Positions 25,739 through 31,098 of a stretch of DNA of 49,033 nt are shown here, piece after piece. Location: contig JAJZYM010000007.1 in NCBI GenBank assembly GCA_021798115.1, positions 1-49,033 of the forward strand, given 5' to 3'. The notes under the pieces were generated by a model, which worked only from the letters and a program-made list of their open reading frames with translations, was not told the origin of the DNA and ran no database searches. The stretch comes from Pseudomonadota bacterium. Its GTDB lineage: Bacteria > Pseudomonadota > Gammaproteobacteria > JAKAQQ01. Numbering within the stretch: position 1 is the stretch's first letter; each line of letters starts with the position of its first letter. The translations under genes were made by a program, and so were the position numbers.

Positions 25739-28432
25739 ATGAGCGACAGCGATCACGCCCCCGAGACCGCCGCGGGGCGGCTTCCCGATCCCGACCCGGA
25801 GGAGACGCGCGAGTGGCGCGAGGCGCTGCGCGCCGTGCGTCTCCTCGAGGGGCCGGACCGCACGCGCGCCCTGCTCGACGTTCTCCTCGAGGACGCGCGC
25901 CGCCACGGCGTCGCGCCCACGGAGGGTCTCACGACTCCGTACGTCAACACCATCCCTCCGGAGGAGGAGCCCCCGTACCCCGGTGAGATCGATCTCGAGC
26001 GGCGCATTGAAGCCTACGTGCGCTGGAACGCGCTCGCCATGGTCGTGCGCGCCAACAAGGAACATTCGGGGGTGGGGGGGCACATCGCCACCTACGCCTC
26101 GGCGGCCCTTCTCTACGAGGTCGGCTTCCATCATTTCTGGCGTGCGCGCGTGGGCGACGGACCGGGCGATCTCGTCTACATCCAGGGGCATTCCTCCCCC
26201 GGCATCTACGCCCGCTCCTTCCTCGAAGGCCGCTTCGGCGAAGACGCGCTTCGGGGGTTCCGTCGCGAGGCGAGCCTGAGTCCGTCGCTCTCGTCCTACC
26301 CGCACCCCTGGCTCATGCCCGAGTATTGGCAGTTCCCCACCGTCTCGATGGGCCTCGGGCCCATTCAGGCGGTCTACCAGGCGCGGCTTCTGCGTTACCT
26401 CGAGCACCGCGGTCTTCGGCCCGCGAGCGACCGCAAGGTCTGGTGCATGGTTGGCGACGGGGAAATGGACGAACCCGAGTCGCTCGCGGCCCTCGGTCTC
26501 GCGGCCCGCGAGGGGCTCGACAACCTCGTCTTTGTCGTGAACTGCAACCTCCAGCGCCTCGACGGCCCGGTGCGCGGCAACGGCAAAATCATCCAGGAAC
26601 TCGAGGCCGTCTACCGTGCGGCGGGGTGGAGCGTCCTCAAGGTCATCTGGGGACGTCGCTGGGATCCCCTCCTGGCCCGCGACCGCGACGGACACCTGCG
26701 CCGCCGCATGGAGGCCTGCCTCGACGGCGACTACCAGACCTTCAAATCCAAGGACGGAGCCTACGTGCGCGAGCATTTCTTCGGCGTCGACCCCGCCCTT
26801 CGGGAGATGGTGGCCGACATGAGCGACGAGGACATCTGGCGGCTCAACCGCGGGGGCAACGATCGGCACAAGGTTTACGCCGCCTACCGGCGGGCGATCG
26901 AGACGCGCGGCCGCCCGGTCGTGATCCTCGCCAAAAGCATCAAGGGCTACGGGATGGGCCGCGCGGGGGAGGCGGCGAACGTGGCCCACCAGCAGAAGAA
27001 GGTGGACGTGGAGGCGCTGCGCGAATTCCGCAACCGCTTTTCGCTGCCGCTCGACGATGCCGCTCTCGAGGAACTGCGTTTCCTGAGCTTTGCGGAGACG
27101 AGCCCCGAGCGGCGCTATCTCCTCGAGCGTCGCCAAGCCCTCGGTGGGTTCCTGCCCGCCCGCCGCCCGGAGCCCCCGAAGCTGGCCCTTCCCCCGGCCA
27201 AGGCCTTCACCCCTCTTCTCGAGGCGAGCGGCGAGCGCGCTTTCTCGACGACGATGGCCGCCGTGCGGCTCATGAGCGAGCTTCTGCGCGACAAGAGCTT
27301 CGGGCCCCGGATCGTTCCCATCGTGCCCGACGAGGCGCGCACCTTCGGCATGGAGGGCCTCTTCCGTCCGTACGGCATCTATTCCTCCCTCGGCCAGCGT
27401 TACACCCCTCCCGACGCCCAGCAGATCGCTCCCTACCGCGAGGACACGGCGGGCCAGATCCTCGAGGAAGGAATCACGGAAGCGGGGTCCATGGCCTCGT
27501 GGCTCACCGCTGCCACGGCGCACAGCCATCACGAACTTGCGCTCGTGCCGTTCTTTTTCTTCTATTCCATCTTTGGATTTCAACGCGCCATGGACCTGAT
27601 TTGGGCCGCGGGAGACGCGCAGGCGCGCGGGTTCCTCTTCGGGGGCACGGCCGGACGGACCACCCTCGAGGGCGAGGGGCTTCAGCACTGCGACGGCCAG
27701 AGCCAGGTGATGGCCTCGCTCGTCCCGAGCTGCGTCGCCTACGACCCGTGTTACGCCTACGAGGTGGCGGTGATCGTGCGCGAATCGCTCCGCCGCATGT
27801 ACGTCGAGGGTGAGAAGATGTTCGTCTACCTCACCGTCACCAACGAGAACTACCCGCATCCGGCGCTTCCCGAGGGGGCGGAGGAGGGGATCGTGCGGGG
27901 CTTGTACCGCCTGCGCACCCTGGGTGAGGAGGGCCGGCCCGAGATCCAGCTCCTGGGTTCGGGCGCGATCCTCCGCGAGGTGGAGCGGGCGGCCGAGATG
28001 CTCGCCGCCGACTACGGCGTGCGGGCCACCGTCTGGAGCGTGACGAGCTTCACCGAACTGCGGCGCGAAGCGCGCGCGCTTCGCCGCGCCGCGGCCCGTC
28101 GCGCCCGCGGCGCCCCCGGCCGTTCGCACCTGGAGACGGAGCTCGGTGGGCGTCCGGGTCCGGTCGTGGCCGCCACCGACTACGCGAGTCTCTATGCGGA
28201 GCAGATCCGCGAGTTCCTGCCCCAGCGCTACGTGACCCTCGGGACCGACGGCTACGGACGGAGTGACATCCGTCCGGCACTGCGCCGATTCTTCGAGGTC
28301 GACGCCGAGCACGTGGTCGCGGCGGCGCTGCGCGCGCTCGTCGACGAGAAGGCCCTCAAGGCCGCGGTCCTCGAGACCGCGCTCAAGCGCTTCGGCATCG
28401 ATCCCGAAACGCCGCCCCCCTGGACGCGCTGA
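25739..28432 (+). CDS. aceE: Pyruvate dehydrogenase E1 component (homodimeric type)
   Basis: It decarboxylates pyruvate with thiamine diphosphate and passes the acetyl group to the E2 lipoyl arm. The 897-residue length fits the homodimeric AceE of proteobacteria. TPYVNTIPPEEEPPYPGE opens the conserved region. HSGVGGHIATYAS, YIQGHSSPGIYARSFLEGR, the thiamine-diphosphate motif MVGDGEMDEPES ending in FVVNCNLQRLDGPVRGN, and EGITEAGSMASW follow. ATG 25739 is taken; the frame is open far upstream but antisense to pyrC. aceF follows 16 bases later. lpd (E3) is absent. Confidence 0.96.
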   Translation: MSDSDHAPETAAGRLPDPDPEETREWREALRAVRLLEGPDRTRALLDVLLEDARRHGVAPTEGLTTPYVNTIPPEEEPPYPGEIDLERRIEAYVRWNALAMVVRANKEHSGVGGHIATYASAALLYEVGFHHFWRARVGDGPGDLVYIQGHSSPGIYARSFLEGRFGEDALRGFRREASLSPSLSSYPHPWLMPEYWQFPTVSMGLGPIQAVYQARLLRYLEHRGLRPASDRKVWCMVGDGEMDEPESLAALGLAAREGLDNLVFVVNCNLQRLDGPVRGNGKIIQELEAVYRAAGWSVLKVIWGRRWDPLLARDRDGHLRRRMEACLDGDYQTFKSKDGAYVREHFFGVDPALREMVADMSDEDIWRLNRGGNDRHKVYAAYRRAIETRGRPVVILAKSIKGYGMGRAGEAANVAHQQKKVDVEALREFRNRFSLPLDDAALEELRFLSFAETSPERRYLLERRQALGGFLPARRPEPPKLALPPAKAFTPLLEASGERAFSTTMAAVRLMSELLRDKSFGPRIVPIVPDEARTFGMEGLFRPYGIYSSLGQRYTPPDAQQIAPYREDTAGQILEEGITEAGSMASWLTAATAHSHHELALVPFFFFYSIFGFQRAMDLIWAAGDAQARGFLFGGTAGRTTLEGEGLQHCDGQSQVMASLVPSCVAYDPCYAYEVAVIVRESLRRMYVEGEKMFVYLTVTNENYPHPALPEGAEEGIVRGLYRLRTLGEEGRPEIQLLGSGAILREVERAAEMLAADYGVRATVWSVTSFTELRREARALRRAAARRARGAPGRSHLETELGGRPGPVVAATDYASLYAEQIREFLPQRYVTLGTDGYGRSDIRPALRRFFEVDAEHVVAAALRALVDEKALKAAVLETALKRFGIDPETPPPWTR

Positions 28433-28448
28433 GCGCAGGAGACCGACG

Positions 28449-30032
28449 ATGGCCCGACACGAAGTCAAGACGCCCGATCTCGGAGACTTTCACGACGTTC
28501 CGGTGATCGAGGTCCTGGTGAAGGAAGGCCAGGAGGTGGCGGAGGGGGAGGGACTCGTCACGCTCGAGACTGAGAAGGCGGTGATGGACGTGCCGGCCCC
28601 GGCGGCCGGGACGGTGCGCCGGCTTCTCGTGAGCCCGGGGAGCAAGGTCTCGACCGGCACCGCGGTCGCCGTCCTCGAAACGCCGGAGAAAGAAACCCTC
28701 TCCCCCTCCGCGGCGCCCGCGTCTCCGAAAACGGCGCCCCCGGCCGCGCCGCCGCAGGCGCCCCCGCCCAACCCGCCGCCTTCATCTTCCGCCGGGGGAG
28801 AGATGCCCGTCGTCACGCCCGATCTCGGGGACTTTCATGACGTTCCGGTGATCGAGGTCCTGGTGAAGGAGGGCCAGGAGGTGGCGGAGGGGGAGGGGCT
28901 CGTCACGCTCGAGAGTGAGAAGGCGGTGATGGACGTGCCGGCCCCGGCGGCCGGGACGGTGCGCCGGCTTCTCGTGAGCCCGGGGAGCAAGGTCTCGACC
29001 GGCACCGCGGTCGCCGTCCTCGAAACACGGAAGAAGGGCGCCCCCGCCCCGGAGGCGCCGTCCCCGCAAGCGTCCCCATCCCCACGGCCGGCGGCCCCTG
29101 TGCGCGAGGAGCCCCCTCCCGTCGTGAAGGACCCGTCGGCGAAGGGCTCCGCGACCGAGGGCCCGCGCCCCGTCCACGCCGGCCCGCACGTCCGCCGCCT
29201 CGCCCGCGAGCTCGGCATCGATCTCCGCCGTGTGCGTGGGAGTGGCCCGCGGGGGCGCGTTCGCCCGGGCGATCTCGCGCAGGCGTCCACCGTCTCCGCC
29301 GCCCCCCTTCCGTCGGCTTCCGAACACGCGCGCTTCGGCCCCGTCGAGGTCGTTCCTCTCGGGCGCATTCCCCGCATCTCGGGCCCGCGCCTTCAGGCGA
29401 GCTGGACCACGATTCCGCATGTCACCCAGCACGATCGGGCGGACATCACCCGCCTCGATGCGCTCCGCCGCGAGCTCAACGCCGCCGTGGGCCGCGACGG
29501 GCCGCATCTGACGCTTCTTCCCTTCGTGCTCCGCGCCTGCGTTCTCGCGCTCCTTCGTCACCCCACGGTCAACGCTTCGCTGAGCCCCGACGGGACGGAG
29601 CTCGTGCTCAAGAAGTACCACCACATCGGCGTGGCGGTCGACACGCCCCAGGGGTTGGTCGTCCCGGTGCTCCGCGACGTCGGGACGAAGGATGTTTTCG
29701 CCCTGGCGCGCGAACTCGGGAACGTCTCGGCCCGCGCCCGCGACGGACGGCTCACGCCCGCCGATTTCCAGGGCGGCTCGTTCAGCGTCTCGAGCCTCGG
29801 GGGGATCGGCGGGACGGCTTTCACCCCGATCATCAACGCCCCGGAGGTGGCGATCCTCGGCCTTTCGCGCGCGAATCTCGAACCCGTCTGGCGGGAAGGG
29901 GCGTTCGTTCCCCGCCTTCTTCTTCCGCTCTCGTTCTCCTACGATCACCGGGTGATCGACGGGGCGGAGGCGGCGCGTTTCACGCGCACCCTGAGCGGAA
30001 TTCTCGAGGGCCTCGAGGGGCTCGTCGCGTGA
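28449..30032 (+). CDS. aceF: Pyruvate dehydrogenase E2, dihydrolipoyl acetyltransferase with two near-identical lipoyl domains
   Basis: The 527-residue core enzyme of the PDH complex has two N-terminal lipoyl domains (about residues 5-80 and 120-195; lipoyl lysines 43 and 158 in ETEKAVMD and ESEKAVMD). They are joined by Pro/Ala-rich linkers. A peripheral subunit-binding domain (HVRRLARELGIDLRRVRGSG) and a C-terminal acyltransferase follow, the latter ending with the catalytic SYDHRVIDGAEAARF and FTPIINAPEVAILGL. The two lipoyl units are nearly identical in DNA as well. It follows aceE by 16 bases. Confidence 0.95.
   Translation: MARHEVKTPDLGDFHDVPVIEVLVKEGQEVAEGEGLVTLETEKAVMDVPAPAAGTVRRLLVSPGSKVSTGTAVAVLETPEKETLSPSAAPASPKTAPPAAPPQAPPPNPPPSSSAGGEMPVVTPDLGDFHDVPVIEVLVKEGQEVAEGEGLVTLESEKAVMDVPAPAAGTVRRLLVSPGSKVSTGTAVAVLETRKKGAPAPEAPSPQASPSPRPAAPVREEPPPVVKDPSAKGSATEGPRPVHAGPHVRRLARELGIDLRRVRGSGPRGRVRPGDLAQASTVSAAPLPSASEHARFGPVEVVPLGRIPRISGPRLQASWTTIPHVTQHDRADITRLDALRRELNAAVGRDGPHLTLLPFVLRACVLALLRHPTVNASLSPDGTELVLKKYHHIGVAVDTPQGLVVPVLRDVGTKDVFALARELGNVSARARDGRLTPADFQGGSFSVSSLGGIGGTAFTPIINAPEVAILGLSRANLEPVWREGAFVPRLLLPLSFSYDHRVIDGAEAARFTRTLSGILEGLEGLVA
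28470..28681 (+). repeat. Direct repeat, copy 1 (first lipoyl-domain coding segment of aceF)
   Basis: This 212-base stretch matches 28815-29026 at all but five positions by my base-by-base reading. Four of the five differences are silent; one changes Thr to Ser next to the lipoyl lysine. The second half, about 110 bases ending CCTCGAAAC, is identical. The spacing of 345 bases keeps both copies in frame. Confidence 0.9.
28815..29026 (+). repeat. Direct repeat, copy 2 (second lipoyl-domain coding segment of aceF)
   Basis: This is the second copy of the 212-base repeat and encodes the second lipoyl domain. It is preceded by a Pro/Ser-rich linker that is not repeated. Confidence 0.9.
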
Positions 30033-30195: not shown

Positions 30196-31098
30196 ATGAA
30201 TATTCGTTCTTCACCGGCGGGTTTCCTGCGGCTTGCCTTCGCGGCCGTCCTCGTGGCGACCCTGGCCGCCTGTAACGGCAGTTCGAGCGGATCGGGCGCG
30301 CTCACGGTCGGTGTCACCGACACCCCGGTCGACGGTGTCTCGCAGGTGGTCGTCGCCTTCACCGGCATCGAGCTCATGGGCCCGGACGGGACGGTGAACT
30401 ACTCTCTCTCGAGCGAGCAGCAGATCAATCTTCTGTCCTATCAGGGGACGGACGATTTCACCCTTCTGGCCAACCAGGCGGTGCCCGCCGGCAACTATCA
30501 GTGGATGCGTCTCGACATCGATCCCGCGCACTCCTACGTGGTGACCGACGCCGGCGCGCAATACCCGCTCTCGATCCCGAGCGGCTCGGAGACCGGTCTC
30601 AAGCTCGTGAGCGGCTTCACCGTGGCCCAGGGGTCGCTCTCCTCGTTCGTGATCGACTTCAATCTTCGTCAATCCCTCACCGAGGACAATCAGGGAGGGA
30701 GCATCACCTACTCCTTGACCCCGGCCCTGCGTGTCGTCAACCAGCAAGAGGTCGGCACTGTCGCGGGGACGGTCTCGGCGAACCTCGACATCGGCACGAC
30801 GCCCATCAGCAGCACCGGTTGTGATCCTGCGGTCTACGTCTACAGCGGAACGCCGACGACGCTCGAGGGCTACGACGCGACCGTGAGCGGGGGGACGATG
30901 CCGCTCACCTCCGCGACCCTCGCGCTCAACGCGTCGAGCGGTCTCTACGCCTACACGGTGGGCTTTCTGGCGCCCGGAACCTACACGTTGACGGTGACCT
31001 GCGCGGGCCTCGACGTGAGCGGCGGGACCTTCGTCGACGTGACGCCCCAGACGGTCACGGTGACGGCGAACCAGACGGCGACCCTGAACTTCAGCTGA
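30196..31098 (+). CDS. DUF4382-domain lipoprotein
   Basis: The 300-residue product is a predicted lipoprotein. Its signal (LRLAFAAVLVATLAAC) has the lipobox LAAC with acylated Cys26, followed by a Ser/Gly linker. The next part, GALTVGVTDTPVDGVSQVVVAFTGIEL to about residue 170, matches the DUF4382 pattern (VTDxPVD, FTGIEL, SFVIDFNLRQSL). The C-terminal half has beta-rich Thr/Val repeats like a carboxypeptidase-regulatory or Ig-like fold. Function unknown. CCGGAGG stands 11 bases before ATG. It is a single gene between the aceEF operon and a strong hairpin; the 163 bases upstream hold no clear promoter. Confidence 0.85.
   Translation: MNIRSSPAGFLRLAFAAVLVATLAACNGSSSGSGALTVGVTDTPVDGVSQVVVAFTGIELMGPDGTVNYSLSSEQQINLLSYQGTDDFTLLANQAVPAGNYQWMRLDIDPAHSYVVTDAGAQYPLSIPSGSETGLKLVSGFTVAQGSLSSFVIDFNLRQSLTEDNQGGSITYSLTPALRVVNQQEVGTVAGTVSANLDIGTTPISSTGCDPAVYVYSGTPTTLEGYDATVSGGTMPLTSATLALNASSGLYAYTVGFLAPGTYTLTVTCAGLDVSGGTFVDVTPQTVTVTANQTATLNFS

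Follow-up and report, generated by a model that had tools for sequence, protein, structure and literature searches.

Bacterial dihydrolipoyl acetyltransferases (E2p) are described as having between one and three lipoyl domains in each chain (PMC8421416, PMC6270654). The repeated domains of PKS/NRPS gene clusters are described as being in concerted evolution, so that they group by cluster rather than by position (PMC4256081), and long-lasting concerted evolution has likewise been described for 26 paralogous prokaryotic genes (PMC6053082). Here we analyze an E2p gene, aceF, from a gammaproteobacterium whose two lipoyl domains are nearly identical in DNA. The window denotes the entire 49,033-nt stretch of contig JAJZYM010000007.1 that was analyzed. 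Its genome (G000) was compared with the other genomes of the family, nine in all including G000, and with E2 genes from other lineages.

Results

The aceEF locus

In the window, aceE ends 16 bases upstream of aceF (Table 1). The closest solved chain for the aceF product is E. coli E2p (7b9k_A, 504.5 bits), and the homology is plain. The top NCBIfam equivalog is TIGR01348, which at 535.8 bits lies just below its cut-off of 552.1, and no other E2 equivalog cut-off was passed among the 25 matches listed. Judged from these assignments, aceE–aceF is an ordinary pyruvate dehydrogenase locus with a predicted E2p bearing two lipoyl swinging arms.

Table 1 Features of the aceEF locus in the window.
Feature	Position	Strand	Evidence or remarks
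aceE, homodimeric pyruvate dehydrogenase E1	25748..28432 (stretch tested plus stop)	+	TIGR00759, 1346 bits, cut-off 859.9
aceF, dihydrolipoyl acetyltransferase (E2p), 527 aa	28449..30032	+	Pfam 2-oxoacid_dh, Biotin_lipoyl (two), E3_binding
Lipoyl domain 1 (LD1), repeat copy 1	28470..28681	+	5 of 212 nt unlike copy 2; Biotin_lipoyl (PF00364)
Linker 1, between the lipoyl domains	28682..28814	+	Orthologous to G001 linker 1
Lipoyl domain 2 (LD2), repeat copy 2	28815..29026	+	Repeat search; Biotin_lipoyl (PF00364)
Linker 2, ahead of the E3-binding domain	29027..29171	+	Orthologous to G001 linker 2
E3/E1-binding (peripheral subunit-binding) domain, residues 242–276	29172..29276	+	PF02817, protein total 51.4 bits, cut-off 23.7
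Acyltransferase catalytic domain, residues 299–525	29343..30023	+	PF00198, 259.4 bits, cut-off 23; DHRVIDG in translation

The predicted lipoylation lysines lie in TEKA and SEKA motifs. The lipoylation motif (28572–28580 and 28917–28925) reads EKA in both window copies and DKA in G001, a genome of the same genus, and in the other readable genomes of the family; a scan of 149 E2 lipoyl domains returned 110 DKA, 11 EKA and 5 AKA, with 23 outside the pattern. The source genome (1.88 Mb, 38 contigs) also contains lipA (385.4 bits) and an E3 gene on contig C35 (TIGR01350, 505.4 bits). This sole E3 above cut-off adjoins a second E2-like gene, which places E3 outside the aceEF operon. The second E2-like gene (L004; L134, G000 contig C35, 31355–34160) has a lipoyl domain and stands immediately before E3. 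Downstream of aceF, positions 30196–31098 encode a 300-aa lipoprotein-like protein whose family matches are all below cut-off; a gene of this kind keeps the same place in G001, as read from the DNA.

Near-identity of the two lipoyl repeats

The preliminary description had reported two 212-nt lipoyl segments at an offset of 345 with five differences, four of them silent, and base-by-base comparison returned exactly these numbers (97.6% DNA identity). The silent differences between copy 1 and copy 2 are GGA/GGG (28484/28829), CAC/CAT (28493/28838), GAA/GAG (28526/28871) and GGA/GGG (28553/28898), and the single replacement is ACT/AGT (28570/28915), corresponding to Thr41/Ser156. The pair was also recovered by a repeat search, which lengthened it to 252 nt with 92% identity. 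Within the window gene, linker 1 and linker 2 align weakly above shuffles (z 2.5).

Two old copies could in principle be kept alike by purifying selection and codon bias, with no recombination: the protein is under strong constraint (within-gene dN 0.007) and third-position GC in aceF reaches 86%. When synonymous codons for the same 70 residues were drawn independently from local usage, however, 37.4 ± 4.5 mismatches were expected and the minimum in about 20,000 draws was 21, compared with the 5 observed. Protein constraint and codon bias therefore do not explain the identity, and we consider this explanation, which is also opposed by the comparisons with other genomes below, highly improbable.

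Age of the duplication

Near-identity of this degree led the preliminary description to propose a recent duplication, and the 97.6% identity is what a tandem duplication within the lineage of the window would leave. The sister-species check that it suggested, on domain number and within-gene identity, was performed with G001, which has the same aceF architecture and is 97% identical to the window across the E3-binding and catalytic part. G001 carries two domains, with 6 within-gene differences versus 5 in the window. Each linker aligns with its own counterpart in G001 (z 26.3 for linker 1 and 22.7 for linker 2), far above the crosswise alignments (z 3.2 for window linker 1 with G001 linker 2 and 3.0 for window linker 2 with G001 linker 1). 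In addition, G001 repeats three of the five differences between the window copies (those at 28484, 28493 and 28526), each copy bearing the base seen in its window counterpart; the window and G001 lineages therefore separated after the duplication. Two domains are likewise found in G003, G004, G005, G007 and G008. On this comparison of sequences, the lipoyl arm was duplicated long ago, no later than the split of the two readable species of this genus, and recent duplication is refuted on the very grounds that the preliminary description had set, with almost no probability left to it.

Homogenization after the split of the window and G001 lineages

Over 210 nt, the four domains of the window and G001 vary at 18 sites. 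At 10 of these the two copies of a genome agree and the genomes differ, 3 sites are copy-specific in both genomes and 5 show other patterns. The 10 sites of the first kind indicate that the copies were homogenized after the split. The preliminary description had named ongoing gene conversion as the other option beside recent duplication, and its homogenization component is thus upheld for the time since the split. Between the genomes LD1 differs at 14 sites and LD2 at 11, with 10 of the changes identical; with 5 and 6 differences within the genomes, the copies are more alike within each genome than between them, as in concerted evolution. The 10 coincident sites compare with 1.06 expected of independently evolving copies and with a maximum of 7 in 100,000 permutations that kept codon position matched, a test that ignores rate variation beyond codon position. 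One run of changes, GTC CTG to ATT TTG, is present in both G001 copies. Many of the shared changes are silent and genome-specific, contrary to what selection and codon bias alone would produce.

With the four gap-free genomes of other genera as outgroups, the derived residues are a Val to Ile change in G001 and the DKA to EKA change in the window, each confined to its own genome and present there in both copies; spread between copies thus occurred in both lineages. Within-gene dS is 0.076 in the window and 0.078 in G001, and between the two genomes it is 0.185 for LD1, 0.140 for LD2 and 0.148 for the E3-binding and catalytic part. For this quartet, the topology placing the copies of each genome together is favored over the orthologue topology by 30.5 lnL, with a KH p of 0.015 that is not extreme. 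Of this gain, positions 61–210 contribute 25.7 and positions 1–60 contribute 4.8.

Positions 61–210 contain zero orthologous sites, and positions 1–60 form a mosaic in which the shared copy-specific sites 28484, 28493 and 28526 are interspersed with the within-genome-shared sites 28487, 28512, 28514 and 28515. This interleaving of copy-specific and genome-specific sites (28484–28529 and 28829–28874) has a finer grain than long conversion tracts of the ordinary kind would give. It would call for parallel change at some sites or for tracts that are patchy or very short, patchy heteroduplex repair being a candidate. In both the maximum likelihood tree and the FastTree tree, the window copies are not sisters, and the G001 pair is nested among them.

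Homogenization across the family

Six of the nine family genomes are readable without gaps (G000, G001, G003, G004, G005 and G007). In all 15 pairs of these, sites shared within genomes outnumber orthologous sites, from 10 versus 3 in the window and G001 to 70 versus 0; the remaining 14 pairs show 21–70 within-genome-shared and 0–2 orthologous sites. Across the 12 domains, the copies-together topology is ahead by 328 lnL (0 of 20,000 resamples). The G005 copies differ at 3 of 210 positions with a within-gene dS of 0.037, versus 0.566 for LD1 and 0.612 for LD2 when compared with G003, its nearest measured relative. The copies of G007 and G004 are more diverged (dS 0.37 and 0.36).

The differences left in G005 (positions 3, 196 and 207), and most of those in G003 (3, 6, 142, 202, 207 and 210), are close to the ends of the repeat, as expected if recombination requires flanking homology. 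The linkers of G007 and G003 are orthologous (z 4.2 and 9.3; crosswise 0.3 and 1.3) although their domains are not. Linker orthology in this pair and in the window and G001 indicates that the gene was not lost and then duplicated again; it is weak between G007 and G005, and absent or one-sided between G005 and G003, G000 and G003, and G003 and G004, more distant pairs whose linkers align too weakly to be informative.

Assembly quality at the repeat

Identical copies might also arise as an assembly artefact, if reads of one copy had filled both. The genomes are many-contig drafts, and three of the nine family assemblies break at the repeat: the G002 contig starts inside a lipoyl domain (L054:1–60), G006 has a 100-N gap from the end of a lipoyl domain (L030:2406–2505), and in G008 the second of the two domains is interrupted by 10 N (L029:2672–2681). 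Lipoyl-domain counts from short-read drafts are consequently unsafe. The six genomes used here, however, have zero N at the repeat, and the window copies retain differences, three of them in common with the separate assembly of G001. We regard an artefact as very unlikely. Collapse of the window repeat was itself rejected, since the repeat (locus L002) is free of N and both distinct linkers are present.

Domain number and deletion at the repeat

The number of domains can be counted in seven of the nine family genomes (the six gap-free genomes and G008) and is two in each. This bears on unequal crossing-over as the route of homogenization, in which a transient three-domain gene would lose one domain, leaving hybrid domains with the same two linkers. 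Such exchange is expected to yield identical site patterns while retaining linkers 1 and 2, and three-domain E2p exists, as in [Erwinia] mediterraneensis (L077) and E. coli (L133). Among the seven countable family genomes, however, neither a one-domain nor a three-domain aceF was seen, although intermediates may be short-lived.

E. coli offered a larger sample. Of 5426 genomes there, 5374 gave an aceF match, which in one case covered only 5% of the gene, and 52 gave none. The linkers were used for counting because loss of one unit would leave more than 80% coverage. Linker 1 was found in 5371 genomes, linker 2 was found in 5365, and neither occurred more than once in any of them, leaving linker 1 undetected in 3 and linker 2 in 9 of the 5374 aceF-matching genomes; these counts are from the distant search mode, as the near mode with short linker queries under-counted linker 2 (5082 genomes). 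No duplicated linker, the sign of domain expansion, was seen in any matched E. coli genome, which further weighs against unequal crossing-over, and we judge that route unlikely. Three of the linker matches lie on records called plasmids. In E. coli JCL301, aceF is reduced to its last 96 bases (NZ_CP107281.1, 120135–120230).

The near-identical repeat had also been described as a hotspot for deletion to a one-domain E2. With two domains in seven of seven countable family genomes, and with E. coli linkers never duplicated and rarely undetected, this idea is not supported, although E. coli repeats are 78–88% alike and so give an indirect test for a 97.6% repeat. The deletion mechanism is reasonable in principle, and selection may remove its products or fail to favor them. 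In a tally of 106 distinct E2 genes, which are the best relatives of the query and not a random sample, the catalytic frame contained one domain in 59, two in 43, three in 1 and none readable in 3. The repeat is interrupted in the last three, which are G002, G006 and G008, and L075 was tallied as one-domain with its second domain visible in an overlapping frame.

Other lineages

Alcanivorax-type and Kangiella loci sort by copy, with shared versus orthologous sites of 0 versus 50 (L076/L105) and 2 versus 31 (L057/L094), and their copies are 58–65% alike in DNA. This opposite pattern means that homogenization is not forced by the enzyme. It also speaks against selection alone as the cause of identity, since the enzyme constraint is the same in these lineages.

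A simple identity threshold for homogenization was considered and proved not to be clean. For 40 two-domain genes, each compared with its nearest relative, the cases in which shared sites exceeded orthologous sites numbered 13 among the 19 genes whose copies were at least 80% alike and 9 among the 21 less similar ones. The Spearman coefficient for this comparison was 0.49 (p 0.0014), with non-independent pairs. Luteimonas-type loci were mixed. In L060, L065 and L066, of Luteimonas/Lysobacter type, copies 84–86% alike are yet wholly sorted by copy (0 versus 16–23). When a tree was built from all 80 domains, 17 of the 40 genes had their LD1 and LD2 as sisters; the window gene was not one of them. 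Orthologous sites exceeded shared sites in 38 of 780 gene pairs, distant pairs being saturated.

Discussion

Taken together, the data very probably reflect an old two-arm duplication in an ordinary aceEF locus, with copies that evolve in concert by recombination. The direct repeats would recombine homologously, so that stretches of one lipoyl domain are copied onto the other. Non-reciprocal gene conversion would be the simplest form of this, as opposed to unequal exchange with a transient third copy. With no homology between the linkers, conversion would stay within the domain. The process would presumably depend on a recombinase, and converted alleles would be tolerated if the arms are interchangeable. 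Fresh duplication was the first guess for this gene, and its correction shows that DNA identity of tandem domains is a poor clock.

Bacterial E2p lipoyl domains may fall into two regimes, one with identical arms held by conversion and one with escaped arms that diverge position by position; we put this forward tentatively, short of even confidence. We are as guarded in assigning the family of the window to conversion that outlasts species, and Alcanivorax and Kangiella to escape. If the two-regime picture is true, aceF would provide many natural replicates for when repeats escape homogenization, and would serve as a gauge of the hold of recombination on repeats and of whether it makes a difference to the enzyme that its arms are identical.

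In architecture the window gene resembles E. coli aceF (E2p, PDB 7b9k), with lipoyl domains, a subunit-binding domain and a catalytic domain, and with aceE upstream. It differs in having two lipoyl domains where E. coli has three, in copies that are 97.6% alike versus 78–88%, and in having no lpd beside aceF in the window, the E3 gene being on contig C35. No report of gene conversion or concerted evolution of lipoyl domains was found in the open-licence literature, subscription papers being outside the scope of the search. The genes described in PMC6053082 are similar in that members of conserved protein complexes undergo recurrent homogenization, there ascribed to gene conversion; they are separate paralogous genes, and the main text of that paper does not contain 'lipoyl', 'aceF' or 'pyruvate dehydrogenase'. 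As described for PKS/NRPS clusters (PMC4256081), internal recombination homogenizes interchangeable domains; unlike those clusters, aceF is a single gene of primary metabolism with two small domains. The process itself is already known, and the aceF lipoyl pair is a clear new instance of it, as intragenic concerted evolution.
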